64,000 bases of DNA from Deltaproteobacteria bacterium. Lineage in GTDB: Bacteria; Myxococcota_A; Polyangia; Haliangiales; Haliangiaceae. The notes below the pieces were generated by a model. That model saw only the letters and a list, made by a program, of their open reading frames with translations, had not been told where the DNA came from and did not search any database. Within the stretch, counting starts at the first letter, position 1; every line of letters starts with the position of its first letter. The stretch spans positions 1 to 64,000 of the forward strand of contig JACCRC010000559.1 in assembly GCA_013813765.1 (NCBI GenBank). Reading direction: 5' to 3'. This document shows positions 3 to 43,446 of the stretch, piece by piece. The translations under genes and the position numbers were made by a program.

Positions 3-1865
3 ACGGATCTCGTCAGCCGCCGCCCGCGGACCTCTCCCGCCCGCCGCGTGATCGAGCTGGCACAGCTCGCGCTCGGCCGCCTGTACTACGAGCGCGATCA
101 GCCGTCGAAGGCGATCGATAGCTACCTGCTGGTCGACCGCCACTCGGACCTGTGGCCCGACGCGCTGTACGAGGTCGCGTGGGTCTACGTGAAGGCGAAG
201 CAGTTCGACAAGGCGCTGCGCGCGCTCGAGCTTCTCTCACTCTCGGATCCCACGTCGGAGAAGACGCCGACGGTACGCATCCTCGAGGGCAACCTTCGCA
301 TCCGCAAGGCGCAGCTCGTGCGCAACGCCCAGATCACCGGCACCGTCGACGCGGACGCCGAGGATCCGTCGGTCGAGTACGAGAAGGCCGCCGCGGTGTT
401 TCGCGAGACGCACGATGGCTACTACCCGTCGTACGAGGCGCTCACGCGGATGCTCGACAGCGCGTCGGCGGATCCCGCCGACTATCTCGCGCAGCTCGCA
501 GGCCGCGCGTCGAACGTGTTCCAGGCCGCACCGCCGATCCCCGAGGCCGCCGCGCAGTACCTGCGCGAGGAGCCCGAGGTCCAGCGCGCGGTCGCGAACC
601 AGGCCGATCTCGGCACGATCACCGCGCACCTGACCGAGGCAGAGGCCACGATCGCGCGGCTCGAAGGCGTGCTCGCGGCGGACGACAAGACGGTCGTGTA
701 CCCGGGCCTGTCATCGCGTCGCTCGCGCATCGGCCAGATCCAGAACGACCTGATCACGATCCGCAACCAGGTGGCCGACCAGCAGATCGCGCTGATCGCA
801 CCGTCGGGCGAGCTGTATCAGCTCACGCAGAATCGGAAGACGCTCGCCCAGACGTACTCGTCGATGCCGAACCCCGAGAACACGTACCTCGCGCTCGTCG
901 GGGAAGCGCGGGTCAAGTTCGACGAGATCGACGAGGCCACGATCGACGTGAGCGCCGCGATCGACTCGACCCAGGCCATGGCGGTCGCGCTGCGGAAGTA
1001 CGTCAACGATGTACCGGTCGAGGGCCAGACGCCCGTCCCCGAGGAGCAGCGCACGCAGATCAACTCCGAGCTCGTGACCACCGCCGGCGAGGCGTTCGCG
1101 ATCGCGAACGAGCTCAACGAGCTCCGCCGCGAGATCACGCTCGGGCGCGACCTCGCGGGCGTCGGCGACGAGTCGGTGAAGCGTGCACGCGAGATACGCA
1201 GCAACCTCAAGACCGCGCAGGACAACGAGCACCGGCTGCTCGCCGGGTTTGCGGCTGCCAGCAAGGACTCCGGCAAGTCCAAGAAGCTCGCCGCACTCGG
1301 CGACCGCGCGGCCCGGATCGCGGAGCAGCTCGAACAGACCGAGCAGCAGGTCGACACGATCGTCGACGGCGCGATGAGCCAGGCCAGGGTGACGATCGCC
1401 GAGGCGCGCCGGAACGTGGACATGTACAAGAGCGAGCTCGCGGAGTACGAGCTCGAGTCGCGCGCGGTCGGCGGAACGATCCTCGCCGGCAGCTTCAAGA
1501 ACGTGAAGGCGAAGTTCTACGACGTGATCGTGCGGACCGACGTCGGCGCGATCGACGTCGTGTGGGCGCAGAAGGAAGACGCCGACGACGATCTCAAGCG
1601 CTTGAACCTGTCTCGCCAGCGCGAGATCAAGCAGCTCACCGACGAGTTCAAGGACATCCTCGACGCGGCGCAGGCTCCGGTCCCGGCGACGCCGGGCACC
1701 GTCACGCCGCCGCCCGCTCCGACGGCGCCTTCCGGCAGCCCCGACAAGGGTGCGGGGGGCGCGCGCGTCAGCCCGGGCGCCGAGATCCCGAAGGCACCGA
1801 CCACACCGACGGTGCGCCCGGATAACGAGACCAAGCAACCCGCGCCCAAGGGAGGCTCGAAGTGA
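3..1865 (+). CDS. TPR and coiled-coil envelope protein, 5' end outside window
   Basis: The reading frame is already open at base 3, and the first visible residues read like the middle of a TPR helix (IELAQLALGRLYYE), so the true start lies upstream. A GTG at base 48 is only the first start-like codon. The visible part is about 620 residues: roughly 100 residues of TPR-type helices, then a long Ala/Glu/Gln/Arg-rich stretch likely to form coiled coil, and a Pro/Ala/Thr-rich tail over the last 60 residues. It overlaps the next gene by 4 bases (GTGA), so both are probably in one operon. The neighbours suggest an envelope scaffold related to the TPR proteins of myxobacterial Glt/Agl machines. No catalytic motif is visible. 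The function is inferred from context only. Confidence 0.8.
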   Translation, partial: TDLVSRRPRTSPARRVIELAQLALGRLYYERDQPSKAIDSYLLVDRHSDLWPDALYEVAWVYVKAKQFDKALRALELLSLSDPTSEKTPTVRILEGNLRIRKAQLVRNAQITGTVDADAEDPSVEYEKAAAVFRETHDGYYPSYEALTRMLDSASADPADYLAQLAGRASNVFQAAPPIPEAAAQYLREEPEVQRAVANQADLGTITAHLTEAEATIARLEGVLAADDKTVVYPGLSSRRSRIGQIQNDLITIRNQVADQQIALIAPSGELYQLTQNRKTLAQTYSSMPNPENTYLALVGEARVKFDEIDEATIDVSAAIDSTQAMAVALRKYVNDVPVEGQTPVPEEQRTQINSELVTTAGEAFAIANELNELRREITLGRDLAGVGDESVKRAREIRSNLKTAQDNEHRLLAGFAAASKDSGKSKKLAALGDRAARIAEQLEQTEQQVDTIVDGAMSQARVTIAEARRNVDMYKSELAEYELESRAVGGTILAGSFKNVKAKFYDVIVRTDVGAIDVVWAQKEDADDDLKRLNLSRQREIKQLTDEFKDILDAAQAPVPATPGTVTPPPAPTAPSGSPDKGAGGARVSPGAEIPKAPTTPTVRPDNETKQPAPKGGSK

Positions 1866-4800
1866 GGTTCCCGAAGCTTGTGCGCCTCGCGATGGCGCTG
1901 TCGCTCCTCGCCACCACCACGCTCGCGATCGCGCAGCCCGGCACGATGCCGTCGGATCCCGCGACGGGACCGGGCCTCGGCGGTCAACCGCAGCCGTTCG
2001 GCGTTCCGGTCGGCCCGATGCCGCCGACGATCCAGCTCACGCCGCAGGAGAAGGATCAGCTCAAGGACGTCGAGGCGGAGTACGAGCGGTTCACGCAGGC
2101 CGCCACGGAGCACGATGCTCGCATGCGGTCGATCGCGCGCCGCGAGTTCGACACGCGCACCGCCGAGCTGACGAAGAAGTACGCGGACCGGATCGCGAAG
2201 ACCGAGGCCGCTCGCGGCAAACGACACGGCGAGACCGTCGCGATGCTCGAGAAGTTCCTCGTCAACCACCCGGCGCACGAGCAGTTCACCCCCGACGCGA
2301 TGTTCCGCCTCGCGGATCTCTACATCGACCTCGCCGAGGAAGAGTTCGAGGCCCGGATGACGGCGCAGGAGCAAGGCGGAAAGCCGGCGGACGCCGATTC
2401 CGACACCGCGCAGATCGTCGACTACGCGCGCTCGGTCGCGCTCTGGGAAAAGATCCTCACGAGCTTCCCGCAGTACCGCCAGACGCCGTCCACACTGTAC
2501 CTGCTCGCGTACTACGATCGCGGCAAGAACGAGCGCCGCTCGCTGAAGATCTTCCTCGCGCTCGCGTGCGCGAACCAGCACAAGTGGAACGAGCCGCCAC
2601 CCGTCGTGCCGAGCCGCGAGGAGGCGCTGAAGCGCGTCTCGCAGAAGCAGCTCCGCGATCCGTACGCGCAGTGCACCCCGTATCCGAACGCCGAGGCCGA
2701 GCTGGTCCGTCACGCGTGGGTCCGCGGCATCGCGGATCTGCACTTCGCGGTTCCCGGCGAGATCGATGAAGCGATCGCGTCGTACCTGAAGGTCGCGAAC
2801 GGCGGCAACGACTCCAAGCTCTACGCCGAGTCGCTCTACAAGCTCGCGTGGTCCTTCTACAAGCGCGACATGATGGAGGACTCGATCAAGCGGTTCGACG
2901 AGTCGGTCCGCCTCTACGACGTGATCGTCGCGCAGGGCGGCACGCCGGCGCTCGAGCTCCGCGACGAATCGATCCAGTACATCTCGGTCGCCTTCACCGA
3001 TCCGTGGGAAGGCGAGGCCGACACGAGCCCCGTGAAGGCGATGGATCGGGCACGGGCGTTCTACAAGGGCCGCGAGAACGAGCCGCACGTGCGCGACGTC
3101 TGGGTCGCACTCGGCAAGGCGTTCACGGATCTGCAGGCGTGGGATCAGGCGGTCGATTCGTACCGCCTCGCGATCGGACCGCCGTGGGAGCTGAACCCCG
3201 GCAACCCGGTCGTCCACCAGGAGATCGTCAACGTGTTCGAGCTCAAGGGCGACAAGTTCGCGGCCGATGCCGCGGCCGCCGAGCTCGCGACTCGCTACGC
3301 GCCGGGCACGCCGTGGTTCGCCGCGAACGAGAAGGACCGCGAGGCGATGGAGAACCAGCGCCGGATCGCGGAGCGCGCGCTGTATGCGGCGACGCGCAAC
3401 ACGCACTCGGCTGCGACGACGATGCGCAAGGACTACGACGCCGCGCCGACGAAGGATCCGCAGGCGAAGGCCGACTACCTCGCGATGTACAGCAAGTCCG
3501 TCGAGCTCTACCGCGCGTTCATCACGACGTACCCCGAGAGCGACTACATCTACGAGTTCACGTTCCTCCAGGGCGAGGCACTGTACTGGAGCGAGCGGTA
3601 CCCCGAGGCGATCATCGCGTACACCTGGGTCCGCGATCACAAGGACATGGGCACCGCGTACTTCATCGACGCGGCCCGCTCGATCCTGCAGTCGTACGAG
3701 GCCCAGGCCGAGCAGCTCGTCGCCGAGGGCAAGCTCAATCCGCTCAAGGTCCCGACGATCGCCGACATGAAGGCGACGCCGCCGCCGTGGACGCCGCAGC
3801 CGATCCCCGACATCTACCTCCGCCTCCAGGCCGAGTACGACAACTACCAGAACGTGGTCCCCGATCCGAAGGCCGCGCCGGGGCAGGGCATCAACGCCGC
3901 ACTCATCTCGCTCGCGTACCTCCATATCGACGACGCGATCGCGCGCTTCACCAAGGTGATGGACAAGTTCTGCGGCGCCCCCGAAGCGGCGAAGGCCAAG
4001 GACGGCATCCTCGCGATCTACGAGGCGCAGTCGAACTACGACGCGATCGAGGCGACGAACAAGAAGTTCATCGCAGCGAAGTGCGGTGACGCCGACAGCA
4101 TCAAGCTCGCGATCTCGCAGAACCGCTCGCTGAACTTCTCGCGCGCGGCTGACCTCTACGCGGCCAAGAACTACTTGCCCGCCTCCGAGGCGTTCTACCG
4201 GTTCTACAAGACCGCGCCGGCGAACGACCCGGACCTCCCGGTCGCGCTGTACAACGCCGCGATCAGCTACAAGCTCGCCGACAAGCCGAACAACGCGCTG
4301 TCGCTGTTCAAGGAGTTCACCGCGAACCCGGCGAAGAACTTCCGCGAGAGCAGCTACTACCTCGATGCGATGCGCCTGACCGCCGCGAGCTACCAGGCGA
4401 AGTTCGACTACGACAACGCGATCCGCACGTACAAGGAGCTCCACAACCTGACGAAGGTTGCGAAGGCGAAGGGCATCAAGGCTCCGGACCCGCTGCCGGG
4501 CGAGCAGCCGCGCACTCTCGAGCAGATCGGGCTCGACGCGCTGTACAACGCCGCGCTCGCGAGCGAGCTCAACCGCGACTTCCGGGGCGCCGTCGAGCTC
4601 TACAACCAGTACGCGAGGGCCGAGCCCGATCGCCGCAAGCAGGACCGCGCGATCTGGTCGATCGGCGGCATCTATCGCCAGTCGGGCGACATCGGCAACA
4701 TGACCGAGACGTTCGACCGCTGGCGCAAGGCGTACGGCAAGGACCAGGGCAACGAGGACGACTACGTCCAGACGTTCTACGATCAGGCCGCGCTGCGGAA

Positions 4801-5395
4801 GAAGAAGGGCCAGACACCGCAGGCCAAGGCACTCGGCCAGGAGACGATCAACGCGTGGAAGGCCCGCGGCGCTCCTCGCGGAACGCGCGGCGCGAAGCTC
4901 GCCGGCGAGTGGCAGCTCGCGCAGGCCGAGGAGTACTACGCGAACACGTGGACACCGTTCGCGATCAAGAAGGCGGCGAAGACCGTTGAAGAGGCGAAGA
5001 GGCAGAACGCGGAGATCGAGAGGCTGAAGACCGCGACCGAGGACAAGTACCTCGCGCTCGATCCGTACGGTGTCGCCGAGCTGTCGATGGCGGCGAAGGT
5101 CCGTTACGCCGACGTGCAGTACGAGTTCGGCCAGAAGATCAGCGATGCCCCGATCCCGGTGCCAGTCGCGAAGAACGAGGCCGCCGTCGCCGCGTACGAG
5201 ACGCAGCGCGACAAGAACCTCACGAAGTTCCTGAACGAGGCGAAGGCCCAGTGGAGCGAGGTTCTGGACCTCGCCAAGCGTGGCGGGCTCTCCAACAAGT
5301 GGAGCCGCCGGGCGCAGGAAGCCCTCGGTCGCGAATTCCCGGGTGAGTTCACGTCCTTACGGCAGGAGCTCGTTCAGGGCACGGAGGCGCCATAA
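1862..5395 (+). CDS. Large exported TPR protein, GltD-like by position
   Basis: This 1177-residue protein has a GTG start overlapping the previous stop. It begins with a Sec signal peptide (about residues 1-25, cleavage after TLAIA), so it should be periplasmic or outer-membrane associated. The remainder is helical, with repeated TPR-like units along its length (for example SLYKLAWSFYKR and ALYNAAISYKLAD), aromatic-rich and without a TM segment. It ends one base into the next gene (TAATG). In Myxococcus xanthus a TPR protein of similar size (GltD) precedes GltE, GltF and GltG in the gliding/focal-adhesion operon. The local order here fits that, but large TPR proteins diverge quickly, so orthology needs profile comparison. 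Confidence 0.85.
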   Translation: MRFPKLVRLAMALSLLATTTLAIAQPGTMPSDPATGPGLGGQPQPFGVPVGPMPPTIQLTPQEKDQLKDVEAEYERFTQAATEHDARMRSIARREFDTRTAELTKKYADRIAKTEAARGKRHGETVAMLEKFLVNHPAHEQFTPDAMFRLADLYIDLAEEEFEARMTAQEQGGKPADADSDTAQIVDYARSVALWEKILTSFPQYRQTPSTLYLLAYYDRGKNERRSLKIFLALACANQHKWNEPPPVVPSREEALKRVSQKQLRDPYAQCTPYPNAEAELVRHAWVRGIADLHFAVPGEIDEAIASYLKVANGGNDSKLYAESLYKLAWSFYKRDMMEDSIKRFDESVRLYDVIVAQGGTPALELRDESIQYISVAFTDPWEGEADTSPVKAMDRARAFYKGRENEPHVRDVWVALGKAFTDLQAWDQAVDSYRLAIGPPWELNPGNPVVHQEIVNVFELKGDKFAADAAAAELATRYAPGTPWFAANEKDREAMENQRRIAERALYAATRNTHSAATTMRKDYDAAPTKDPQAKADYLAMYSKSVELYRAFITTYPESDYIYEFTFLQGEALYWSERYPEAIIAYTWVRDHKDMGTAYFIDAARSILQSYEAQAEQLVAEGKLNPLKVPTIADMKATPPPWTPQPIPDIYLRLQAEYDNYQNVVPDPKAAPGQGINAALISLAYLHIDDAIARFTKVMDKFCGAPEAAKAKDGILAIYEAQSNYDAIEATNKKFIAAKCGDADSIKLAISQNRSLNFSRAADLYAAKNYLPASEAFYRFYKTAPANDPDLPVALYNAAISYKLADKPNNALSLFKEFTANPAKNFRESSYYLDAMRLTAASYQAKFDYDNAIRTYKELHNLTKVAKAKGIKAPDPLPGEQPRTLEQIGLDALYNAALASELNRDFRGAVELYNQYARAEPDRRKQDRAIWSIGGIYRQSGDIGNMTETFDRWRKAYGKDQGNEDDYVQTFYDQAALRKKKGQTPQAKALGQETINAWKARGAPRGTRGAKLAGEWQLAQAEEYYANTWTPFAIKKAAKTVEEAKRQNAEIERLKTATEDKYLALDPYGVAELSMAAKVRYADVQYEFGQKISDAPIPVPVAKNEAAVAAYETQRDKNLTKFLNEAKAQWSEVLDLAKRGGLSNKWSRRAQEALGREFPGEFTSLRQELVQGTEAP

Positions 5396-6495
5396 TGGAT
5401 CGGATGTCGACGTCGCGCGTTCCTAGCTTCATGACCCGGCGCCTCGGGGCGGTCCTTCTGTGTTTCGCGGTCGCCTGTGGTGGCGGCAGCAAGAAGGACA
5501 AGACCACGCCCAAGAAGGACCAGGGCGGGCAGTCGATGAAGGACGGCGGCGATCCCGAGGCTCCGCCGACCGGTGGTGGAGCGGGCTCGGCGGGCGACGT
5601 GGCGGGCACTGGGAGCGGATCGGGAACCGGCTCCGCCGGCATCGCGTCGGAGCCCGGCGAGACCGTGCAAGCGGTTGTCTATCCGAACCTCGACCAGGAT
5701 CCCGCGCAGGCGAAGGCGAAGGTCGATGCGCACCTCGCGACCGCGAAGATGGCGCTGGCCCAGCAGAACCCCGACGGCGACACCGCGCTCAAGGAAGCTC
5801 GGCTCGCGCTGACGTTCGATGCAGCGAGCGTCGACGCCGCCGCGATGATCGCGTTCGCCTACTACCACAAGAAGCTCTACGAGACGGCCGAGCTCGTTCT
5901 CGACGACCTGTTCAAGCGCGAGACCGCGAAGAACAACGCGCAGGTCTACTACGTGTATGGCCTCGTCTACGACAAGACGAACCGGCCCGAGCGCGCCGAG
6001 CTCGCGTACCAGAAGGCGGTCGGTCTCGATGCGAACCACCAGAGCGCGCTCGTCAACCTCGGCGTGCACCAGCTGCGCAACGGCCAGTACCAGGAAGCCG
6101 AGCAGACGTTCGATTCGCTCGTCGGCAAGTTCAACCGCAAGGACGCGGTCACGCTGACGTCGCTCGGCTCCGCGTATCGCGGGCGCTCCGCCGAGTATCC
6201 GCCCGGTGGCCAGCGCGACCAGTACGTGGGCCGTGCCGACGGCGCGTACAAGCGCGCGACGCAGGCGAATTCAAACTACGGGCCTGCCTACTACAACCTC
6301 GGGCTGCTCTACCTCGAGAACTCCCCGTTTCCCGGCATCAAGGACGAGATGACTCGTCTCAGTGCGGCGAAGGGGTACTTCGATCAGTACAAGAACATGC
6401 CGGGCGTCGACATCAAGCTCTACGACGACCGCATGAAGGACGTCACGAAGCTCATCAAGCGCCAAGAGAAGCTGAACAAGAAAAAGAAGTCATAA
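5395..6495 (+). CDS. TPR lipoprotein, GltE-like by position
   Basis: This 366-residue protein has a signal peptide ending in a probable lipobox (FAVAC, Cys at about residue 28), so it should be lipid-anchored. A Gly/Ser/Lys-rich linker runs to about residue 95. At least three TPR units follow: AMIAFAYYHKKLYETAELVLDDL, VYYVYGLVYDKTNRPERAEL and LVNLGVHQLRNGQYQEAEQTF are partial examples. A Lys-rich tail closes the protein. The start shown overlaps the previous stop by one base; an internal Met (residue 13) directly before the charged n-region is an alternative. Together with its neighbours it looks like the lipoprotein part of a Glt-like envelope complex. Confidence 0.85.
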   Translation: MDRMSTSRVPSFMTRRLGAVLLCFAVACGGGSKKDKTTPKKDQGGQSMKDGGDPEAPPTGGGAGSAGDVAGTGSGSGTGSAGIASEPGETVQAVVYPNLDQDPAQAKAKVDAHLATAKMALAQQNPDGDTALKEARLALTFDAASVDAAAMIAFAYYHKKLYETAELVLDDLFKRETAKNNAQVYYVYGLVYDKTNRPERAELAYQKAVGLDANHQSALVNLGVHQLRNGQYQEAEQTFDSLVGKFNRKDAVTLTSLGSAYRGRSAEYPPGGQRDQYVGRADGAYKRATQANSNYGPAYYNLGLLYLENSPFPGIKDEMTRLSAAKGYFDQYKNMPGVDIKLYDDRMKDVTKLIKRQEKLNKKKKS

Positions 6496-6506
6496 TAAGG
6501 ACCCCC

Positions 6507-6824
6507 ATGCGCACGAACCCTTGGCTCTCCCTCCTCGCCGTGACGGCCGGTCTGGTCCTTGTCGCGCCAGCACCGAGCGCGCGTGCCGAGGGTTGTCCGG
6601 ATGATGCCGAGAGCGGCGAGAAGAAGCAGGGCAAGTTCCACATCGAGTACATCAACGGCAAGCCGGTGACGGTGATCGATACGGTCGTGTCGGTGTGCGG
6701 CAAGGTCCCGCGGCCGAGCGTGGTCTACGTGCTGACCGCGAAGAACATCGATTACGAGTGGGAGAACCTGAAGCAGGACTTCATGCCGCTCATCCTCAAG
6801 ACCGTCAAGCAGGCGCCGTTCTGA
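6507..6824 (+). CDS. Small exported protein, GltF-like by position
   Basis: This 105-residue protein starts at an ATG preceded by AAGGA about five bases upstream. It has a clear signal peptide (residues 1-27, cleavage near ARA/EG). The mature part has two cysteines (near residues 30 and 64) that could form a disulfide, and a short beta-rich segment (FHIEYINGKPVTVIDTVVSV). It ends in TGATG, sharing one base with the next gene. M. xanthus GltF is also a small periplasmic protein encoded between the TPR lipoprotein and the FHA-TonB protein, so this is a positional match. I do not recognise the sequence family. Confidence 0.8.
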   Translation: MRTNPWLSLLAVTAGLVLVAPAPSARAEGCPDDAESGEKKQGKFHIEYINGKPVTVIDTVVSVCGKVPRPSVVYVLTAKNIDYEWENLKQDFMPLILKTVKQAPF

Positions 6825-8236
6825 TGGCGACGGCACGTCCCAATCAGGCAGGCGGCACGACGATCGGCGGCGGCGGAAATCGTCCGCGCATCCTACGTAT
6901 CGGCGTGTTGCTCGGCGGCAAGATCGTCGAGGAGCGGCTGATCCGCGAGCGCACGAGCGTGACGATCGGGCAGTCGATGAAGAACACCTTCTCGATCCCG
7001 GTCGACGGGCTGCCGCTAGAGTTCACGCTGTTCTCGATGGAGGAGGGCAAGTACTCCCTCCGCTTCCTCGCGAAGATGGACGGCCGGCTCTCCGACGGGA
7101 GCGGCGGCGTCCACACGCTCGACGTCCTCAAGTCGGGCCGCGGCGCGCAGCAGGTCGGCGACTACTGGCAGGTGCCGCTCACCGACGGTGCGCGCGGCAA
7201 GCTCTCGATCGGCGACCTGACTGTTCTGTTCCAGTTCGTCACCGAGCCGCCGCGTCAGCCCAAGCCGATGCTGCCCGCGTCGGTGCGCGGCACGTTCGCC
7301 GATCGGTTCGATCCGCGGCTCAGCGTGATCCTCGCTGCGTCGATCCTCGCGCACTTCGCCGTCGTCATCATCGCGCTCCTCACCGACGTCGAGGTGCCGA
7401 GCGGCATGGCCGAGCGCGCGTACAACCTCACGTTCAAGCCCGACACCTATCAGGTCGATGTCACGCAGCCCGAGCCCGTGAAGACGGCCGATGCCGGATC
7501 TGCGGCGGGCAGCGCGGCCGCGGAGAAGAAGCCGGAGCCGAAGGTGGCGAACAATCCGAAGCCGGCGACGAAGCCGGATGACGGCGGTGGCCGCAGTGAC
7601 AGGGACACCGTCGCGATGCAGGAAGAGGAGGCCGCGCGGTTCGCCGATCTCCTCACCGGTGAAGGCGAAGCAGGCACCAGCGAAGGCGACATGAGCAAGC
7701 GCCGCCCGGGCGCGGACCTCGGTCAGCAGATCAGCGACGTCAAGGAAGGCGGCAAGACCGTCGCGATCGGCGGCGGCGCAGGCCGCGGCTCGCGCGGCGA
7801 CGGCGATCCGCGTGTCGGCACGGGCTCCGGTCCGAAGATCAGTGGCCCGACGGGCCCCGAATCCGCAGGCGGCGGCAAGACCGAGAAGCAGCCCACCGGC
7901 CGCATCAACGTCAGCGACAAGCAGACGTTCGACGAGTCGACCCTGACTCCCGACATCGTGCTCTCGAAGATCCAGTCCGCCTACATGGCCGGCCTGAAGC
8001 GTTGCTACAAGGAGTATCTGAAGAAGGACGCCACGGCGCGCGGCAAGGTCACGCTGTCCCTCACGGTCAACGAGACCGGCCGCACCACGTCAGGCAAGGC
8101 CAAGGGTTTCGCGGGCGACGTCGACGACTGCATCAGCGGCTTGATGCAGAGCTGGCGCTTTCCGATCCCGAAGGACAAGGACGGCGAGGCCACCGAGGCG
8201 AGCTTCGCGATCACGCTGCAGCTGATTCCGGACTGA
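6824..8236 (+). CDS. FHA-like / TM / AgmX-PglI C-terminal domain protein (GltG-like), copy 1
   Basis: The ATG overlaps the previous stop by one base, giving 470 residues. Residues about 20-140 are a beta-rich FHA-like domain in which the usual G-R is G-Q (VTIGQSMKN) and no canonical S..H is seen, so phosphothreonine binding is doubtful. One TM helix lies at about 166-187. A long Gly/Pro/Lys-rich periplasmic linker follows. Residues about 372-470 are the AgmX/PglI C-terminal (TonB-like) domain with its two Cys (LKRCYKEY and VDDCISG) and the SWRFP motif. This is the layout of GltG in the M. xanthus gliding motor, which links the cytoplasm to periplasmic partners. The next gene is a close paralog. 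Confidence 0.87.
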   Translation: MATARPNQAGGTTIGGGGNRPRILRIGVLLGGKIVEERLIRERTSVTIGQSMKNTFSIPVDGLPLEFTLFSMEEGKYSLRFLAKMDGRLSDGSGGVHTLDVLKSGRGAQQVGDYWQVPLTDGARGKLSIGDLTVLFQFVTEPPRQPKPMLPASVRGTFADRFDPRLSVILAASILAHFAVVIIALLTDVEVPSGMAERAYNLTFKPDTYQVDVTQPEPVKTADAGSAAGSAAAEKKPEPKVANNPKPATKPDDGGGRSDRDTVAMQEEEAARFADLLTGEGEAGTSEGDMSKRRPGADLGQQISDVKEGGKTVAIGGGAGRGSRGDGDPRVGTGSGPKISGPTGPESAGGGKTEKQPTGRINVSDKQTFDESTLTPDIVLSKIQSAYMAGLKRCYKEYLKKDATARGKVTLSLTVNETGRTTSGKAKGFAGDVDDCISGLMQSWRFPIPKDKDGEATEASFAITLQLIPD

Positions 8237-8241
8237 TCCCG

Positions 8242-8420
8242 GGGCGAAGGCCGGCGACCAGCCGGGGCTGCGACCGTCGCGGCTCGGGCGGCTCGAGCCG
8301 TACGGCCGGTTCTCGCTCGGCCTGTGCTTCAGCACAGGCGCTCGCTGCGCTTCCGGGCGTACGACTCGATCCGCCTCGAGCCGCTCGGTCTCGCGCCCGG
8401 CTGGCCACCGGCCTTCGCCC
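8242..8420. repeat. 179-nt imperfect palindrome between the two GltG-like genes
   Basis: The outer arms are 8242-8266 and the reverse complement of 8396-8420, identical at 23 of 25 positions. The symmetry continues inwards with interruptions, for example GGCTCGAG-type blocks near 8290 and 8374. It closes on a near-perfect hairpin at 8321-8338 (CCTGTGC TTCA GCACAGG). The whole element is centred near 8330 and fills almost all of the 215-base gap between paralogous genes. It could be a folded RNA element, a transcription attenuator or a REP/MITE-like insertion. There is no T-run for a classic intrinsic terminator, and I see no transposase. Confidence 0.75.
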
Positions 8421-8451
8421 TCTAGATCTTCCGCCTGGTTGGCACGTTTCC

Positions 8452-9759
8452 ATGGGGATGACCTCCCCTGTGCCCACCCGTGCTTTGCGCGTCGGCGTCC
8501 TCCTCGGTGGCAACCTCGTCGAGGAGCGCGTGTTTCGCGAGGGTGCGCCGATCACGTTCGGCCAGTCGCTGCGCTGCTCGATCTCGGTGCCGGGTGACGG
8601 CATCCCGCACGAGCACGTGCTGTTCGCGCGCGAGGAGGGACGGTTCATCCTGCGCGCAGCGCCGAAGATGACCGGCAAGCTCGCGCAGCGCGGGGAGATC
8701 AACGCCGAGCTGGTGGGCGACGTCGCCATCGACAAGGGTGCGCGCGGCAAGCTGACGATCGGCGATGCGACGCTGCTGTTCCAGGAGATGGCCGCACCAC
8801 CGCGCGCGCCGAAGCCGCTCTTGCCCGCCTCCGTGCGCGGTACGCTCGGTGATCGCATCGACCGCCGCCTTGCCGCGATCATCGGCGCCTCGGTGATCGC
8901 GCACCTCGCGATCGCGGGCTACGCGTGGTGGAACGACGTCGAGAGCGGCTCGATGCTCGAGACGCCCGTCGCGCAGCAGTACCGCCAGGAAGTGATGGAG
9001 GTGTCGTTCCCCGACGATCCAACCACACCGACACCGAGCGTCTCCACCGGGCCCGGGGCGGCGGCGCCGGCGACGCCGGTGCAGACGGCGAAGCCGATCG
9101 TGCGCCCCACGCGCGTGACGCCGAACAACCCGACTTCGACCGCCGCGACCGAGGATGATGCGATGAAGTTCGCGTCGATCCTCGCCGGCACCGAGGTCGG
9201 CCGTAACGGTGCGAACGACCTGAGCAAGCGACAGCCCGGCGCGGACCTCGGCACGCAGATCGCTGCGGTCGGTGATCGCCAGGTCGTCGTCGGCAACAAC
9301 GACAGCGGCTTCCGCCAGGGACCGCGCGACGGCATCGGTACCGACTCGAAGCAGATCACGAACGATCCGAATCAGGTCGCGACGCAGGCGCCGAAGAACC
9401 CCGAGCGCGAACCGGGCGGCCGCATCCAGATCAAGCCGCTGCCGCCCCAGGGCCCTGGCACCACGCTCACCGTGCAGATGGTCCTCGACAAGATCAAGGG
9501 CGTCTACATGACGGGCCTGCAGCGCTGCTACAAGAAGGGCCTCCTCGACGACAGCAAGCTGTCGGGAAAGATCGCGATGTCGTTCACGGTCACCGAGCGC
9601 GGATCGCTCGACGACGCGAGTGCGTCGGGCGTGTCGTCCGAGGTCGATGCGTGCATCGAGACCCTGATGTCGGGCTGGCGGTTCGGCATCCCGCGCGACA
9701 AGGACGGCGATCCGACCGAGCAGCCGTTCAAGCTGGTCCTGGCGCTCCAGCCCAGCTGA
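8452..9759 (+). CDS. FHA-like / TM / AgmX-PglI C-terminal domain protein (GltG-like), copy 2
   Basis: This 435-residue paralog of the preceding gene has the same layout: FHA-like domain at about 12-115 (ITFGQSLRC; here an H-E-H at the position where copy 1 has L-E-F), TM helix at about 141-160, Pro/Thr-rich linker, and the AgmX/PglI domain in the last 100 residues (LQRCYKKG, VDACIETL, GWRFGIP). A second ATG two codons downstream is an equally possible start. It lies 215 bases from copy 1 with the palindrome between. Two such proteins could form a hetero-complex or respond to different inputs; this is inferred from duplication alone. Confidence 0.87.
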   Translation: MGMTSPVPTRALRVGVLLGGNLVEERVFREGAPITFGQSLRCSISVPGDGIPHEHVLFAREEGRFILRAAPKMTGKLAQRGEINAELVGDVAIDKGARGKLTIGDATLLFQEMAAPPRAPKPLLPASVRGTLGDRIDRRLAAIIGASVIAHLAIAGYAWWNDVESGSMLETPVAQQYRQEVMEVSFPDDPTTPTPSVSTGPGAAAPATPVQTAKPIVRPTRVTPNNPTSTAATEDDAMKFASILAGTEVGRNGANDLSKRQPGADLGTQIAAVGDRQVVVGNNDSGFRQGPRDGIGTDSKQITNDPNQVATQAPKNPEREPGGRIQIKPLPPQGPGTTLTVQMVLDKIKGVYMTGLQRCYKKGLLDDSKLSGKIAMSFTVTERGSLDDASASGVSSEVDACIETLMSGWRFGIPRDKDGDPTEQPFKLVLALQPS

Positions 9760-9776: not shown

Positions 9777-10628
9777 ATGGCCCTCCGCGTGCTGGCGTTC
9801 GTGATGCTCGCGCTGAGCACCGCCGCGGCCGCACCGAAGAAGCGGTGGGAGACCCTGCCGCTGCCTCCGGCGATGCCCGCGGCGACGACGAGCGGGCAGG
9901 TCGATGTCAACGGCGCGTCGATCTACTACGCGATCTACGGCAAGGCGGATGCGGCGCGCCCACCCGTCGTCCTCTTGCACGGCGGTCTCGGCAACTCGGA
10001 TCACTTCGGGTTCCAGATGCCGGCGCTCGTCGACAAGTTCCAGGTCATCGTGATCGACTCGCGCGGGCAGGGGCGCAGCACACTCACGAAGGCGAAGCTC
10101 AGCTACCACGCGATGGCGGGCGACGTGGTCGCGGTCCTCGACAAGCTCGAGGTCAAGAAGGCCGCGTTCGTCGGCTGGAGCGACGGCGGCGCGATCGCGC
10201 TCGACCTCGCGATCCACAACCCCGATCGCGTCGCGAAGCTCTTCATCGTCGGTACGAACTATGACTCGAAGGGCTCGAAGCCCCGCGGTGGTTCGTCGAC
10301 GCCGACGTTCAAGCTGTACTCCGCGAAGTGCAAGGCGGACCATCAGAAGCTGTCGTCGAAGCCGAAGTCGTACAACGAGGTCATCGACGCGCTGTTGCCC
10401 GTCTGGCGCAACCCCGCGGGGTTCACGAAGGCACAGCTGAAGCAGATCCAGGCGCCGAGCATGATCACGCTCGGCGCGTACGACGAGATCATCCTCACCG
10501 ACCAGATCAAGGAGATGGGAACGCTGATCCCGAAGGGACAGTCGCTGATCTTCAAGGACGCGAGCCACTTCGTGATGTGGCAGGACCCCGAGAGCTTCAA
10601 CAAGGCGCTCGTCGAGTTCCTGAAGTAG
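9777..10628 (+). CDS. Exported alpha/beta-hydrolase
   Basis: This 283-residue protein has an N-terminal signal peptide (residues 1-21, Ala-rich c-region), so it is probably periplasmic or secreted. It has an alpha/beta-hydrolase fold with the oxyanion-loop motif LLHGGLGNS, the IDSRGQGRS strand-turn and the nucleophile elbow GWSDGG. A likely acid lies in TLGAYDEI, and the catalytic His is in KDASHFVMW near the C-terminus. The substrate cannot be predicted; esterase, lactonase or proline iminopeptidase-like activity are all known for this family. It follows the GltG-like gene by 17 bases and may be read through from it. Confidence 0.85.
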   Translation: MALRVLAFVMLALSTAAAAPKKRWETLPLPPAMPAATTSGQVDVNGASIYYAIYGKADAARPPVVLLHGGLGNSDHFGFQMPALVDKFQVIVIDSRGQGRSTLTKAKLSYHAMAGDVVAVLDKLEVKKAAFVGWSDGGAIALDLAIHNPDRVAKLFIVGTNYDSKGSKPRGGSSTPTFKLYSAKCKADHQKLSSKPKSYNEVIDALLPVWRNPAGFTKAQLKQIQAPSMITLGAYDEIILTDQIKEMGTLIPKGQSLIFKDASHFVMWQDPESFNKALVEFLK

Positions 10629-10637
10629 AGTCGCGCG

Positions 10638-13686: not shown

Positions 13687-15957
13687 CTACGGGGGAGGCA
13701 GGAGCGCTCGGGCCTGCTCGATCTTGTCCAGGCGAGCCGTCACCTCGCTGCGCCGAGCGGCGGGGAGGATGCCAACATCCAGGCGCCGCAGACAGCGCTT
13801 CGCAGGCTCCCATTCACCCATTCCAATGTGCGCATCGCACAGCACGAACCAGGCGTTGACCTTCTCGTTGACAGTGCCGGTCCAGCTCTCCACGTCCCGC
13901 ACCTCGCGAGCCGCCTCGGCGAACCGCTGCTTTTGCAGCAGCACGCGTGCGAGCGCGACCCGGCGATCGCGGGCCACGACGTCGCCGCAGCGCTGGCTCG
14001 CTGCCAGCAGGGCGGGCAGCTCCTCGCGCTGCATCGCCACTCCGTACAGCGCCGTGCACGCGACGGTACTCCCCGGGTGCTCGTCGAGCACGCGCTTCAA
14101 CCACCGCGTCTGGATGTCGAACGCCTTCGCCTCCACCAGGAGCCGCAGCATCGGGTCGAGCGTCGCGATCTCGGTGGGGATCGCGGTCGCTGCCACCTCC
14201 GGCGTGAGGCGCGCGATCACCTCTGCCACCACGGGACGCGGACTCGTCGACGCTCGCAGCGTTGCTGCAAACTCGACGGCGGCTTGCTCGGGCTTTCCGC
14301 CCCGGAGCAGCATGCGCGCCGCGAGGTGATGCAGCCCGGCCAGTAGCGGATGGAGGCGCAGCGCGTGGTTGAGGACGCGCACGGTATCGGGGTCGCCCGC
14401 TCGATACATCGCCTGGCTGGCGAGCGCGTAGCCGAAGTAGTCGAGCGGGTGGCGCTCGATGGTCGCGCGGATCTCGTCGAGCGACACCTCCTCGCTCGCG
14501 GTGAGGCGTTCATGATCCTCCGCGTTGGACGTCGTGGCGCTGCCGAGGAGCAGCAGGGCCGCGAGCACGAGGCTCGCGAACTGAGCGATGCGAACGCCGG
14601 CCGCGATTCTCACCTGCTTGCCCTCGAGCTCCTTCATCGGTCCGTAGGTCAGCGTCGCGAGCAGCGCGGTGACAGGGACCGCGAGACCGAGCATCTGAAC
14701 GCCAAAATCGACGATGCTCTGCAACGCGATCGCGGCGAGCGCCGCGAGTGCAGCGGCCGCGAGCGGACCATCCCGCCAGCGCCTCAGCGCTCTCACGGCG
14801 ACCCAGCCCATCGCCAGCCCGATCAGGATCGCGCCGATCACGCCCCACTCGACGACGGCTTGCACGTACTCGTTCTCGGCGTGCGAGAACGTCGCCTTGG
14901 CGGAGGCGGGATGGACCCGCGTGATCGCGGATTCGAATGCTCCGCGCCCGATGCCGAGCCACGGGGCCTCCGACAGCAAGCTCTCCGCCGAGCGCCAGAT
15001 CGCGAACTTGCTGTTGGGCTGACTGACCTCGTCGAGGCTGGTGCGCGAGAGCTGATGGCTCACGTCTCCCGCACTCGCGTAGACGATGACGATGATCGTG
15101 CACACCACGACAACGACGACCGGCAACGATGTCGTCAGCGCGCGCGAGCGCGATCGAGGCCGCGCCTCCTCGGGGAACAGGCGCTGCCCGACGCGAACAC
15201 CCGCGAGCACGAGGAATCCGGCGACCAGCGCGAGCGTTGCACCGCGCGAATTGCCGGCGACCGTCGTCGCTCCACACGCCGCCACGACGAGCAGCCACAG
15301 CGCGCGAAGGATCGATCGCTGCCGCGGATACATCGCGAGTCCCCCGGCCACCGTGGCGCAGATCGCCATGAAGCCGCCGAGGTGGTTGTCGTTGAGCAGC
15401 GGACCGAGGAGCTTGGGCTGCGCGTGGGTGGGCTCGTACAGACCGTAGAGCCGCGTCGCGCCGGCCAGAGCGTGAAGCGCGACGAGTGCTGCCGTCACGC
15501 CGCCGATCGCGGCAATCGTCGCGAGGATCCGATAGCGCCCCTTCTCGGAGATCGAGAGTCGCAATGCCCAAACGGCGACGCCGATCAGGATCACGAGCAC
15601 CGCGACCGCGCGCAGCGTGCCCGGCGGATCGAGGGACAGCGACGGCCACGGTGACGTCCCCATCAGCGCGGCTCCGTCCTCGCGAAGGCCGTTGCCGATC
15701 GGCTGCAGGATGTCGAGGAGTGCCTGCGGCAGCGGGATCAGCTGGATCGCGCTGACCAGTGCGGCCGCGCCGAGCGCGACCACCAGCGGCGGAACACGCG
15801 CGAACACGCGGCGTGACTTCACCTGCGGAAGCAGCGCGATCACCACGAGCAGCGCGACGATCGCCTGCGACCATCGCAGCACACCACCGACCAGAAAGAC
15901 CGCACTGCACAAGGCAGCCACACCCGCGGAGAGCGTCACGCGCTCGCGGAGCGTCAC
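13687..15957 (-). CDS. Wzy/WaaL-type O-antigen polymerase or ligase with TPR-like tail
   Basis: This 756-residue protein has a GTG start four bases after the OPX gene stop, so the two form an operon. About 12 predicted TM helices cover residues 10-490. Wzy_C family landmarks are present: LLNDNHLGGFMA, GNSRGATLAL and, in the large periplasmic loop, HAENEYVQAVVEWGVIGA. The last 250 residues form a soluble helical domain with TPR-like repeats. Such enzymes either polymerise undecaprenyl-linked repeat units or ligate glycan to an acceptor; sequence reading alone does not separate these. The link to an OPX exporter favours a role in secreted polysaccharide. A second family member is encoded at 25371-26747. 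Confidence 0.85.
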   Translation of the reverse strand: MTLRERVTLSAGVAALCSAVFLVGGVLRWSQAIVALLVVIALLPQVKSRRVFARVPPLVVALGAAALVSAIQLIPLPQALLDILQPIGNGLREDGAALMGTSPWPSLSLDPPGTLRAVAVLVILIGVAVWALRLSISEKGRYRILATIAAIGGVTAALVALHALAGATRLYGLYEPTHAQPKLLGPLLNDNHLGGFMAICATVAGGLAMYPRQRSILRALWLLVVAACGATTVAGNSRGATLALVAGFLVLAGVRVGQRLFPEEARPRSRSRALTTSLPVVVVVVCTIIVIVYASAGDVSHQLSRTSLDEVSQPNSKFAIWRSAESLLSEAPWLGIGRGAFESAITRVHPASAKATFSHAENEYVQAVVEWGVIGAILIGLAMGWVAVRALRRWRDGPLAAAALAALAAIALQSIVDFGVQMLGLAVPVTALLATLTYGPMKELEGKQVRIAAGVRIAQFASLVLAALLLLGSATTSNAEDHERLTASEEVSLDEIRATIERHPLDYFGYALASQAMYRAGDPDTVRVLNHALRLHPLLAGLHHLAARMLLRGGKPEQAAVEFAATLRASTSPRPVVAEVIARLTPEVAATAIPTEIATLDPMLRLLVEAKAFDIQTRWLKRVLDEHPGSTVACTALYGVAMQREELPALLAASQRCGDVVARDRRVALARVLLQKQRFAEAAREVRDVESWTGTVNEKVNAWFVLCDAHIGMGEWEPAKRCLRRLDVGILPAARRSEVTARLDKIEQARALLPPP

Positions 15958-15961
15958 GCGC

Positions 15962-16555
15962 CTACCAGGGGCGCTCGGGCACGAAGATCTCGTCGCCCGG
16001 CATCATCGGGAAGTTGGGGCGACGGCCCTCCGCGATCATCTCGACCGGGATCTTGTACGTCTCCTTCCTCCCGTCGGTCAGTCGCGTGACGCGCACCATG
16101 TTCTTGCGCGCGAGCGGCTGAAATCCGCCGCTCTGCGCGATCGCCTCGGTGATCGTCAGACCCGGCGTGAACTTGATCGAGCCACTGCGTCCGACCTGAC
16201 CAAACACGGAGCACTTGAGAGAGTTGATCTCCGTCACGGTCAGCGACACGACCGGATCCTGGAGATATCCGTCAGCGAGTCGCTTCTGGATATCCTCCTG
16301 GACCTGACGGAGCCCCTTGCCGCCGGCGGAGACACTCCCGATGTACTGAACCTCCATCGTCCCGGAGGAATCCAGCGTGTAAGTGGCATGGATTTCCTTC
16401 GACCCATAGAAGACCGTGAGGGCGAGCTTGTCCCCAGGACCAAGCGCTAACTTGCCCGGGTCAAACGGCGCAACCGTCGGATAGGTTGCTGGCGGATTAT
16501 CCGCACATGCACCTGCGAGCAGGAGAATCGCGATGAGGGCCAGTAGAGGACGCAT
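15962..16555 (-). CDS. Short polysaccharide export outer-membrane lipoprotein (OPX, Wza family)
   Basis: This 197-residue protein has a signal peptide with lipobox LAGAC (Cys about residue 17). A Poly_export domain follows (LGPGDKLALTVF to LTVTEI), and then one SLBB domain (SVFGQVGRSGSIKFTPG to FVPERPW). The chain stops at VPERPW directly after the SLBB domain, so the C-terminal amphipathic helix that forms the Wza outer-membrane pore in E. coli is absent. Short OPX proteins in myxobacteria are thought to work with a separate outer-membrane beta-barrel; a candidate is at 55342-56667. It is the first gene of a two-gene operon with the polymerase/ligase. Confidence 0.9.
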   Translation of the reverse strand: MRPLLALIAILLLAGACADNPPATYPTVAPFDPGKLALGPGDKLALTVFYGSKEIHATYTLDSSGTMEVQYIGSVSAGGKGLRQVQEDIQKRLADGYLQDPVVSLTVTEINSLKCSVFGQVGRSGSIKFTPGLTITEAIAQSGGFQPLARKNMVRVTRLTDGRKETYKIPVEMIAEGRRPNFPMMPGDEIFVPERPW

Positions 16556-16644
16556 CGACCGTACCTAGTTGCCGACGAGCGGCGCTCGGTTCATGCCAGA
16601 TTTCAGTGAACGTTACCACCGGCCCGCGCAACCAACCCCTGACG

Positions 16645-16673
16645 TTGACCCAGTAGCTTGTTTTCCGTATCCT
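16645..16673 (+). promoter_or_regulatory. Candidate sigma70-type promoter for the gene at 16693
   Basis: TTGACC at 16645-16650 and TATCCT at 16668-16673 are separated by 17 bases. A start site near 16680 would leave a leader of about a dozen bases before the ATG at 16693. The match is 5 of 6 at -35 and 4 of 6 at -10. It lies in a 137-base gap between divergent genes, which fits its role. Confidence 0.45.
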
Positions 16674-16692
16674 TGCCCGAGGCTCGTACTCC

Positions 16693-17262
16693 ATGACTTC
16701 GCCGATCCGCCGCTTCGCTCTCGCCGTCCTCATCATGGGCGCCGCCGGCGGTATCGCGGCGACCGACACGGCAGCTCCGGCCACGCCGCCACCTCCACCG
16801 GCCGCTTCCGCGAAGGTGCAGGCGATGTCCCCGGCCGAGTTGAAGACCTCCGCCGACGGAATCCAGGCGCAGATCAAGGAGGACTACCAGCACGTCCTCC
16901 GGCTCCAGGGCATTGCACGCAAGCAGAAGGACGTCATCAAGCTCAACTGCGTGAACGACAAGCTCGTCCAGCTGAAGGTTCAGATGAACCTCGCAGACAC
17001 CTCCTACAACTCGCTGGTGGCGAACCAGTCAAAGGGTGAGGAAGCGTCGGGCATGCACGCGCAGCTCCAGGCGACCGGCCACAGCGTGAAGGAGCTCCGC
17101 GAGGCCGCGAATGCATGCATCGGCGAGCTCGAGCTCAAGCGGGAATCTCCGATCGAGGTTCAGAGCCCCGAGATCACGGATGACCCCGGTGTAATCGATC
17201 CGTACAACGGTGAGCAGGGCGTCGTCGTCGAACCGCCCGGCTACGCGTCTCCGTTCCACTGA
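16693..17262 (+). CDS. Exported helical protein of unknown function
   Basis: This 189-residue protein has a signal peptide (about residues 1-24) and a Pro/Ala-rich linker. A helical segment at about residues 45-150 is likely to form coiled coil (KTSADGIQAQIKEDY to ELRE), with two Cys (KLNCVND and NACIGEL) that could pair. The C-terminus is acidic, then Pro/Gly-rich, without a TM segment. It lies divergently from the OPX gene and upstream of the nucleotide-sugar dehydratase. It may be an envelope accessory of the polysaccharide locus, but I do not recognise the family. Confidence 0.75.
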   Translation: MTSPIRRFALAVLIMGAAGGIAATDTAAPATPPPPPAASAKVQAMSPAELKTSADGIQAQIKEDYQHVLRLQGIARKQKDVIKLNCVNDKLVQLKVQMNLADTSYNSLVANQSKGEEASGMHAQLQATGHSVKELREAANACIGELELKRESPIEVQSPEITDDPGVIDPYNGEQGVVVEPPGYASPFH

Positions 17263-17381: not shown

Positions 17382-19334
17382 GTGCCTCCCCTTTTCCTCA
17401 GACTCTTCCAGCGCAGCCTGCTGTCGATCCTCGATGTGATCGGGCTGTCGATCGCGTACTGGCTCGCGTTCCTGTTCCGCTTCGAGTTCGACATCCCGTC
17501 GAGCGCGCTCGACCTCGTCTTCATCAACTGGCCGTACGTGGTCGCGACCCAGTATCTCGCGCTCTCCATCATGGGCGTGCCGCGCATGTCGTGGCGCTAC
17601 ATGACGATGCGCGACACCGTCCGCATCGCGCTCGCGATCGCGCTGTCGACCGCGGTGCTCGGTCTGCTGCGCATCGCGCTGCCGCTCCTGGTCGGGCATC
17701 GGCTCGTGTACATCCCGTTCGGCGTGATCGCGATGAACTGCGTGCTCGCGTTCCTCGCGCTCGTCGCCTCGCGCGCTCTGGTGCGCCTGCGCGGCGAGGC
17801 GATCGACCGCGAGCGCCGCAAGCCCGGGAACGCGACGCAGTTCAACGCGCTGCTCATCGGTGCCGGCGAGGCCGGCGTGATCGTGGCGCGCGAGATCCAG
17901 AATCGTCCAGACCTCGGGCTCAAGCCCGTCGGCTTTCTCGATGACGATCGCCGCAAGATCGGCACGAGCATTGGCGGTCTGCAGGTGCTCGGCACCACGA
18001 ACGACATCAAGGAGATCGCCGAGCAGAAGCGTGCGAAGCGCGCGCTGATCACGATCGCGAACGCGACTGGCCACCAGATCCGCCGGATCACGGAGCAGTG
18101 CCGCGACGCGGGCCTCGAGACGAAGATCATCCCCGGCATCTACGAGATCGTCGGCGACAAGGTGAACCTGTCGCGCATCCGCGAGGTCGCGATCGAGGAC
18201 TTGCTCGGCCGCGAGCCGGTGATCCTCGACGAGGACATCGTCGGCTCGACGATTCGCAGCCGCGTCGTGCTCATCACCGGCGCCGGCGGCAGCATCGGCT
18301 CCGAGCTCTGCCGTCAGGTCTGCCGGTTCGGTCCCGAGCGCCTGATCCTCGTCGAGCGCTACGAGAACGCGCTGTTCGAGATCCATCGCGAGCTCACCCA
18401 GGCGTTCCCGCAGGTCCCGATCGAGCCGCGCATCGGCGACGTCTGCGACGAGGAGCGCATGCTTCAGGTGTTCGAGGCGAGCAAGCCCCACGTCGTGTTC
18501 CACGCCGCCGCGCACAAGCACGTGCCGATGATGGAGTGGAACCCGGGTGAGGCCGTGAAGAACAACATCGGCGGTACGCGCGTGATCGCGGACCTGTCGG
18601 ACCGCACGGGCGTCGAGCGCTTCGTGCTCGTGTCCACCGACAAGGCGGTCAACCCCTCGTCGGTGATGGGCGCGACCAAGCGCGTCGCCGAGATCTACCT
18701 GCAGGCGCTGTCGGAGCGTTCGTCCACGCGGTTTGTCACGGTGCGGTTCGGCAACGTCCTCGGCTCGGCCGGTAGCGTGATCCCGATCTTCCGCGAGCAG
18801 ATCGCGAAGGGCGGCCCCGTCACCGTCACGCACCCCGACATGACGCGCTACTTCATGACGATCCCCGAGGCCAGCCAGCTCGTCATGCAGGCCGGCGCGA
18901 TGGGCGACGGCGGCGAGATCTTCATCCTCGACATGGGCAGCCCGGTGAAGATCGTCGACCTCGCGCGCGACCTCATCACGCTCTCGGGTCTGCGTCCCGA
19001 CGAGGACATCGAGATCCGGTTCTCGGGCGTCCGTCCCGGCGAGAAGCTCGTCGAGGAGCTCCACGCCGACGCCGAGCACGCCGACAAGACGAAGCACCCG
19101 AAGGTCTTCATCGGCCGGATCAAGCCCCACAACTGGGACATCGTGAGCTCCGCCGTCGACGTCACGCTCGACCTCGCGCAGGGCACCGACCCCGAGCTGA
19201 TCCGCAAGGCACTCGGCGAGCTGGTCCCCGAGTTCCGTGCCGTGCGGCCGTCGCGCTCTTCGCTCAAGACCACCGACCGCACCACCGACACGCTACCCGC
19301 GCTGCCGGCGCCCGAGATCACGGCGACGAACTGA
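17382..19334 (+). CDS. WbpM/PglF/CapD-type nucleotide-sugar 4,6-dehydratase, membrane bound
   Basis: This 650-residue protein has a GTG start. Four TM helices lie at about residues 13-32, 50-66, 80-100 and 110-130. A first Rossmann domain follows (LLIGAGEAG at 157-165), then the catalytic SDR domain (LITGAGGSIGSELC at 297-310). The catalytic TDK is at 419-421, and the usual SDR Tyr is Met (M429, MGATK), which is normal for this dehydratase group. These enzymes convert UDP-GlcNAc to the 4-keto-6-deoxy sugar. The facing gene pair encodes an aminotransferase and a GNAT acetyltransferase, so the set could make a UDP-4-amino or diacetamido-trideoxyhexose such as a bacillosamine or FucNAc4N type. 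The 3' end overlaps the GNAT gene by 17 bases. Confidence 0.93.
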   Translation: MPPLFLRLFQRSLLSILDVIGLSIAYWLAFLFRFEFDIPSSALDLVFINWPYVVATQYLALSIMGVPRMSWRYMTMRDTVRIALAIALSTAVLGLLRIALPLLVGHRLVYIPFGVIAMNCVLAFLALVASRALVRLRGEAIDRERRKPGNATQFNALLIGAGEAGVIVAREIQNRPDLGLKPVGFLDDDRRKIGTSIGGLQVLGTTNDIKEIAEQKRAKRALITIANATGHQIRRITEQCRDAGLETKIIPGIYEIVGDKVNLSRIREVAIEDLLGREPVILDEDIVGSTIRSRVVLITGAGGSIGSELCRQVCRFGPERLILVERYENALFEIHRELTQAFPQVPIEPRIGDVCDEERMLQVFEASKPHVVFHAAAHKHVPMMEWNPGEAVKNNIGGTRVIADLSDRTGVERFVLVSTDKAVNPSSVMGATKRVAEIYLQALSERSSTRFVTVRFGNVLGSAGSVIPIFREQIAKGGPVTVTHPDMTRYFMTIPEASQLVMQAGAMGDGGEIFILDMGSPVKIVDLARDLITLSGLRPDEDIEIRFSGVRPGEKLVEELHADAEHADKTKHPKVFIGRIKPHNWDIVSSAVDVTLDLAQGTDPELIRKALGELVPEFRAVRPSRSSLKTTDRTTDTLPALPAPEITATN

Positions 19335-43437: not shown

Positions 43438-43446
43438 CGCAGGGCT

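Follow-up and report, generated by a model that had tools for sequence, protein, structure and literature searches.

A Glt/Nfs-type module of Haliangiaceae, distinct from the gliding machine, and its linkage to OPX/Wzp polysaccharide export

Does a cluster of Glt-like genes necessarily belong to a gliding machine, and if not, what might it serve? The question is raised by a 64,000-nucleotide stretch of a Deltaproteobacteria bacterium of the Haliangiaceae (assembly GCA_013813765.1, contig JACCRC010000559.1, positions 1 to 64,000; hereafter the window), which opens with a module of six genes, A to F, at positions 3–9759. An initial annotation had compared the module with gltD-gltE-gltF-gltG of Myxococcus xanthus, with a fifth gene in front and a doubled GltG. 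Judged by its sequences and gene order, it is related to the gliding machine of myxobacteria but is a second, non-gliding system. We favour, as reasonably probable, the reading that this Glt/Nfs paralogue would act as an energised trans-envelope machine serving polysaccharide export through a Wzp/outer-membrane polysaccharide export (OPX) translocon, by analogy with the Agl-Glt and Nfs systems. The module comprises the following genes (TPR, tetratricopeptide repeat):

A, 3..1865, plus strand: C-terminal part of a GltC-like exported TPR/coiled-coil protein (full length 745–840 residues in relatives)
B, 1862..5395, plus strand: GltD-like exported TPR protein of 1177 residues, with signal peptide and TPR matches
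C, 5395..6495, plus strand: GltE-like TPR lipoprotein, with the lipobox LLCFAVACGGG visible in the sequence
D, 6507..6824, plus strand: GltF-like small exported protein of 105 residues
E, 6824..8236, plus strand: GltG-like TonB-type protein without FHA1
F, 8452..9759, plus strand: second GltG-like protein, a duplicate of E

All the genes described at 3–9759 are present, and the exported TPR protein, TPR lipoprotein and 105-residue exported protein of the initial annotation are borne out. Its overlaps of a few bases hold for A/B (4 bp) and for B/C and D/E (1 bp each), but C and D lie 11 bp apart and E and F about 215 bp apart. A Pfam scan of A–F detected TPRs alone. Against NCBIfam, C matches NF033758 (GltE) at 3.7e-13 (49 bits, below the 225-bit cut-off), and A matches NF033756 (GltC) weakly at 4.6e-7 (28.9 bits of a 450-bit cut-off), a match that reaches 4.5e-15 with the full-length A of a relative (L023). 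D found no match in the NCBIfam or Pfam family scans; its mature part is nearly invariant in the window's family, and a profile of D finds weak relatives phylum-wide. A tandem duplication of this GltF-like gene was seen in genus g2 of the same family (L105 9456–10051; L106 10210–10826). Relatives keep the gene order at 50–88% identity (62–68% for B orthologues; about 52–88% for B and E within the family), which rules out a chance arrangement. The source is a metagenome-assembled genome of 8.1 Mb in 562 contigs, 88% complete, and statements about it come from targeted searches; absences within it are therefore weak.

The contig edge at which the window opens (G000:C427:1) cuts A at its 5' end, and relatives supply the missing front. 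Two of them (L023 and L026) carry obgE, then an exported protein, Z (268–289 residues), then full-length A (809–839 residues). The window's own genome has obgE, Z and the N-terminal 215 residues of A on a small contig, C69 (L125 3–647, minus strand); the end of C69 and the first bases of the window show no exact overlap, so we infer their join. From these matches, A is a GltC-like core member and not the additional gene that the initial annotation had placed in front, and the further gene standing before it is Z. Z has no match in Pfam or NCBIfam; its sequence shows a stretch of coiled coil and a conserved, predicted beta-rich domain. AlphaFold modelling from two sequences was poor (predicted local distance difference test, pLDDT, 44) and was used only for the description 'helix plus beta-strands'.

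How widespread is this arrangement? Across 379 Myxococcota genomes, 237 of them of high quality, Z occurs in 262 (186 of the high-quality set), nearly always in single copy. The order Z-A-B-C-D-E is kept in more than a dozen families, often straight after rplU/obgE, and the full recurring order is obgE-Z-A-B-C-D-[ExbB-ExbD-ExbD]-E. Genes were called with a home-made caller, and loci where it gave poor calls or none (L134, L148, L133, L136, L152 and others cut by contig ends) were excluded from the counts of 30 loci given below.

The clue to function lies further along, outside the interval 3–9759 on which the initial annotation had concentrated. Downstream of E, most loci carry X1 (about 190 residues, exported), X2 (a barrel of about 430–460 residues) and X3 (an OPX lipoprotein of about 200 residues with Poly_export and SLBB domains). 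At least one of the three lies no more than three genes from E in 28 of the 30 loci outside the window's family; the 28 span 13 families, and the other two loci come from two species of a single genus. By comparison, 0 of 20 canonical loci encoding FHA-bearing GltG have X1–X3 or Z within the up to about 20 kb fetched for each. Fisher's test on these counts gives p of about 5e-12, a value that ignores shared ancestry, so the 13 families are the safer measure. Where X1–X3 stand away from E they sit with wzc or wzy: X1-X2-X3-wzc in family f24, X2-X3-wzy-wzc in genus g31, and, in the window's family, wzy-X3 divergent from X1-capD. The window holds the three genes and their neighbours at these positions:

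Wzy_C-domain polymerase/ligase with C-terminal TPRs, 13687..15957, minus strand: adjoins X3 (PF04932, 1.2e-19)
X3, 15962..16555, minus strand: class-3-type OPX lipoprotein with Poly_export and SLBB and no Wza_C match (operon-derived profile, 6.7e-53)
X1, 16693..17262, plus strand: exported protein of about 190 residues, an operon partner of E elsewhere (operon-derived profile, 9.1e-26)
CapD-like nucleotide-sugar enzyme, 17382..19334, plus strand: adjoins X1 (PF02719, 1.1e-119)
Wzc-type chain-length regulator with fused kinase-like domain (polysaccharide co-polymerase PCP-2A type), 53157..55331, minus strand: adjoins X2 (Wzz, GNVR, AAA_31)
X2, 55342..56667, minus strand: Wzp-like outer-membrane beta-barrel beside the Wzc gene (operon-derived profile, 4.5e-67)

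The linkage thus falls at 15962–17262 and 55342–56667. X3 is the only OPX protein detected in the genome by our own-genome search, and a search of 18 genomes for X1 gave a single strong match in every one, plus weaker additional matches in two. A member of the X2 family in another locus (L112) is BBP2_2-like, below the Pfam cut-off. X2 and X3, adjacent in other families, are 39 kb apart in the window, where the order wzy-X3-X1 is one conserved in the family (L234–L236). Together the two have the features of a class-3 OPX/Wzp pair, a short OPX protein without Wza_C and a predicted outer-membrane barrel; in size (about 200 and 440 residues) they resemble the WzaB/WzpB, EpsY/EpsX and ExoA/ExoB translocons (PMC9603273, PMC9601211). 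The Wzx/Wzy region of the window, within or beside which X1–X3 lie, also holds a sugar-phosphate transferase and a UDP-sugar dehydrogenase. Inside the Wzy/Wzc region, at 42169–44280, we observed a Wzt-type ABC ATPase (Wzt_C), next to which a probable Wzm-like permease is encoded; the region may therefore specify two polysaccharide routes. Directly after F, at 9777–12944, stand genes for an alpha/beta hydrolase and for a Ser/Thr kinase whose C-terminal half carries TPRs, and this F-hydrolase-kinase block is retained in three relatives (L021, L023 and L024).

Could the linkage be incidental? The module might be a general, Tol-Pal-like envelope-maintenance complex, whose association with obgE and with polysaccharide genes would be a by-product of conserved envelope genes. 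Its near-universal and usually single-copy occurrence, its attachment to the housekeeping genes rplU/obgE and its Tol-like motor type all fit such a role, but it is X1–X3 in particular that come after E in 13 families, and where they stand apart they are again tied to wzc or wzy; moreover, the genome has a Tol-Pal-like cluster at a separate locus, C121. We consider envelope maintenance unlikely, though it is the strongest of the competing accounts.

A second possibility is an Nfs-like machine for a spore or cyst coat, which would arrange polymer at the surface and not secrete it. The precedent is clear: in M. xanthus the Agl-Nfs machinery moves Exo polysaccharide on spores, and AglR contacts both GltG and NfsG (Wartel et al. 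2013, PMC3858216). Like NfsA-H, the window module is a Glt paralogue associated with a polysaccharide pathway and probably with a motor encoded elsewhere. Unlike Nfs, it is without NfsA/B/H-type barrels (neither NfsA/B-type barrels nor an NfsH homologue occur in 1–13 kb of the window or on C69) and is linked to a vegetative-type Wzx/Wzy cluster with an OPX/Wzp pair. Such barrel genes are found in another, fuller cluster of the same genome, C43 (L055, 2271–14178), which encodes two OMP_myx_plus barrels, a Z-like protein, GltC/D/E/F/G-like proteins, a lipoprotein and a CglE/GltH-like protein. C43 may represent the organism's gliding or Nfs-type system, and resembles both nfsA-H and Glt better than does the window module, which is also without gltA/B/H-type barrels. 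The WzaB pathway for biosurfactant polysaccharide (BPS) is, moreover, active in vegetative cells (PMC7310880). A coat machine therefore seems to us improbable, more so than envelope maintenance.

What, then, of gliding itself, the role that the initial annotation had allowed for by calling the module orthologous or paralogous? The Glt/Agl machinery (G1, G2 and M1) has GltC, D, E, F and G homologues in the same relative order as the window, but the two GltG-like proteins depart from it. E matches NF033760 (GltG) at 7e-17 over GltG positions 204–632, that is, without the true FHA domain; E scores about 58–61 bits and F 34 bits against a cut-off of 650, and both score still lower as GltJ (30 and 28 bits against 450). 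The AgmX/PglI C-terminal domain, NF033768, is above its cut-off in both, as the initial annotation had proposed. Each protein has a beta-rich N-domain, a single transmembrane helix, a disordered linker and the AgmX/PglI C-domain. The AlphaFold model of E, reliable in the N- and C-domains only, places the beta-domain at about 22–140, the transmembrane helix at about 164–186, a disordered linker next and a TonB-like C-domain at 376–467. Foldseek matches the C-domain to TonB C-terminal domains (probability up to 0.99, E 0.01–1) and the N-domain weakly to FHA and FHA-fold (IRF) domains; the model has no match at E <= 0.001, which makes the FHA-fold assignment a weak one. The 'FHA-like' label of the initial annotation thus survives at the level of a weak fold resemblance, but neither E nor F has an FHA domain according to Pfam, and the first ~200 residues of GltG, which hold it, are missing.

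The doubling of GltG stands. F is 39% identical to E, and our tree unites the family's E and F proteins in a single clade (support 1.0), with F as a separate branch; all obg-linked E proteins are split from canonical GltG at a node of low support (0.305). F adjoins E in the window and in L021, lies several genes off in L023 and L024, and was not found within the fetched sequence of L026, L105, L106 and L107. This patchy placement, with the common clade, indicates that F arose by duplication within the window's family, to which it is confined, and was later lost or relocated.

The same genome offers better candidates for the gliding apparatus. Its FHA-bearing GltG proteins score about 235 and 185 bits, as against 58 for the window module: contig C86 carries one of about 235–237 bits, C205 has GltE-like, CglF/GltF-like and FHA-bearing GltG-like genes, and C255 has a GltJ-like gene. 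Four genomes of the same family (G300, G086, G306 and G335) each contain both a window-type module and a canonical FHA-GltG locus. Profiles derived from the operon match the proteins of C43 in order (Z 4e-11, A 2.9e-36, B 1.8e-127, C 2.4e-32, D 7.5e-8, E 1.1e-35). These six in-order matches, with the canonical loci, identify the window module as a paralogous Glt/Nfs-type core and not the gliding cluster. Its locus has no GltH, GltI, GltJ, GltK or AglRQS genes, F being followed by the hydrolase and kinase; the initial annotation had already remarked on the missing GltH, GltI and GltJ, and its guess at an ancestral or non-gliding version fits. Of its two alternatives the paralogous one holds and the orthologous one does not. 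We accordingly rejected gliding orthology: the scores fall short of the cut-offs, E and F are without FHA, and the same genome has canonical paralogues. That the module is a true GltC-D-E-F-G orthologue driving focal-adhesion gliding is very improbable: shared gltD-E-F-G order and architecture and weak GltC/E/G/J matches speak for it, but no score comes near its equivalog cut-off, relatives hold intact canonical clusters, and no motility role was found for the G3–G5 paralogues of M. xanthus (Luciano et al., PMC3169522). The initial annotation had advised looking for further Glt and motor homologues in the genome, and would have lost its footing had there been none; they are present (C43, C86, C205 and C255; motors on C146 and C259), so its Glt assignment stands.

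Where might the energy come from? Between D and E, 14 of the 30 E-bearing loci outside the window's family (families f8, f26, f36, f52 and f54) carry an ExbB-ExbD-ExbD motor, whereas no ExbB or ExbD gene occurs at any fetched locus of the window's own family, f1. All 26 genomes tested nevertheless encode R of this motor type, and those without an in-operon motor have at least one orphan R of the same clade (170–214 bits), usually as a divergent pair of complete motors. The window's genome has orphan motors on two separate contigs, C146 (177 bits) and C259 (145 bits), C146 being the nearest relative of the in-operon motor clade in a quick tree. A motor is therefore available in trans, and one or both of these loci probably supply it to the window-family module, a use that we infer from similarity. 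That the family's module is motorless, a decaying or passive scaffold, is highly doubtful: it would account for the absence of ExbB/ExbD from every f1 locus, but every reading frame is intact, D hardly varies, B and E are conserved across the family and the genomes have orphan motors belonging to the same clade.

Two further observations concern these motors. Back-to-back divergent ExbB-ExbD-ExbD pairs occur in several families (L244, G178:C1:577000–595000; L245; L246), with C146 and C259 as their probable equivalents in the window's genome. The in-operon Q, the first ExbD-like protein, has Asn at the expected ion-coupling Asp of ExbD/TolR (for example, PIMNIM and PVMNIM) in L113, L114, L119, L124, L137, L138, L139, L153, L157, L158 and L163; the in-operon S, the second, keeps Asp where readable, and C146 and C259 have Asp in both subunits.

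By analogy with Agl-Glt and Nfs, all these components may belong to one complex. The ExbB-ExbD-ExbD proton motor in the inner membrane would act on TonB-like E (and F), on the model of the contacts that AglR makes with GltG and NfsG in M. xanthus. Through its long linker and TonB-like C-domain, E would extend into the periplasm and engage the TPR proteins A and B, the outer-membrane lipoprotein C and the exported proteins D and Z, and motion or conformational change could then be passed on to X1 and the X2/X3 translocon. Polymer made by a Wzx/Wzy-type pathway, predicted to end in the class-3 OPX lipoprotein X3 and the Wzp-type barrel X2, would thereby be driven, gated or moved at the cell surface.

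Can the proposed export machine be placed in M. xanthus? The paralogue clusters defined there are G3 (nfs), G4 (with the gltD homologue MXAN_1922), G5 (MXAN_1327) and M2 (MXAN_3004) (PMC3169522). WzaB (MXAN_1915) and WzpB (MXAN_1916) are the class-3 OPX/barrel pair for BPS (PMC9603273), and their genes are remote from the remaining BPS genes. Counting from MXAN_1915, MXAN_1922 is seven genes along, as the order X3-X2-X1-E-(one gene)-D-C-B would predict. Going by these locus-tag numbers, the window module is probably equivalent to G4. In the literature searched, MXAN_1922 appears only in Luciano et al., and no paper deals with MXAN_1918–1921, 1923 or 1924.

Several points weigh against an export role. 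In the window, X1–X3 lie 6–46 kb from F, outside the operon, and the orphan motors are assigned by similarity only. The sample holds no M. xanthus-type genome (GltG above cut-off in 0 of 379). The strongest point is that a polar MXAN_1922 mutant is reported to move without appreciable defect, as is an MXAN_3004 deletion mutant (PMC3169522), although mutants of the BPS pathway are impaired in the swarm spreading that depends on type IV pili (PMC7310880). Unless its loss shows only under certain conditions, the module is thus unlikely to be essential for BPS export; a modulatory or surface-transport role is likelier. A requirement in polysaccharide secretion has been shown by experiment for WzpX/EpsX of M. 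xanthus (PMC9603273, PMC9601211).

How much of this is new? The core complex (gltC, D, E and G with aglRQS homologues) was defined in 2011 and its function stated to be unknown (Luciano et al., PMC3169522). GltC-, GltD-, GltE- and GltG-like genes are clustered in the window, as in the Luciano group B core complex, and the module agrees with that complex in gene content and order; in many lineages the motor genes stand between those for the GltF-like and GltG-like proteins. It differs in adding Z, the GltF-like D and X1–X3 as conserved partners, and the window version in having a second GltG-like gene and no motor at the locus. The text of PMC9603273 contains neither 'Glt' nor 'AglRQS', and neither it nor PMC9601211 ties the translocon to the Glt core complex or to an ExbB/ExbD motor; as the searched literature is without it, the connection appears not to have been made so far. 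The module is thus a variant of the known core complex, and its tie to OPX/Wzp polysaccharide export is newly recognised.

A broader proposal, which we put forward tentatively, is that a dedicated Glt-type trans-envelope machine, driven by a motor, powers the OPX/Wzp translocon by which myxobacteria secrete at least one major, BPS-like polysaccharide, that M. xanthus G4, with or without M2, is this motor-linked export unit, and that Glt gliding and Nfs spore-coat assembly are later specialisations of what was ancestrally a polysaccharide-transport machine. An operon that joins the core complex to an OPX/Wzp translocon provides a concrete candidate function for a complex whose role has gone unstated since 2011. 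If correct, it would explain why wzaB/wzpB of M. xanthus seem an 'orphan' pair distant from the biosynthesis genes, would add to OPX-dependent export a proton-motor-driven component not described in the papers cited, and would suggest that gliding arose from a polysaccharide-transport machine.

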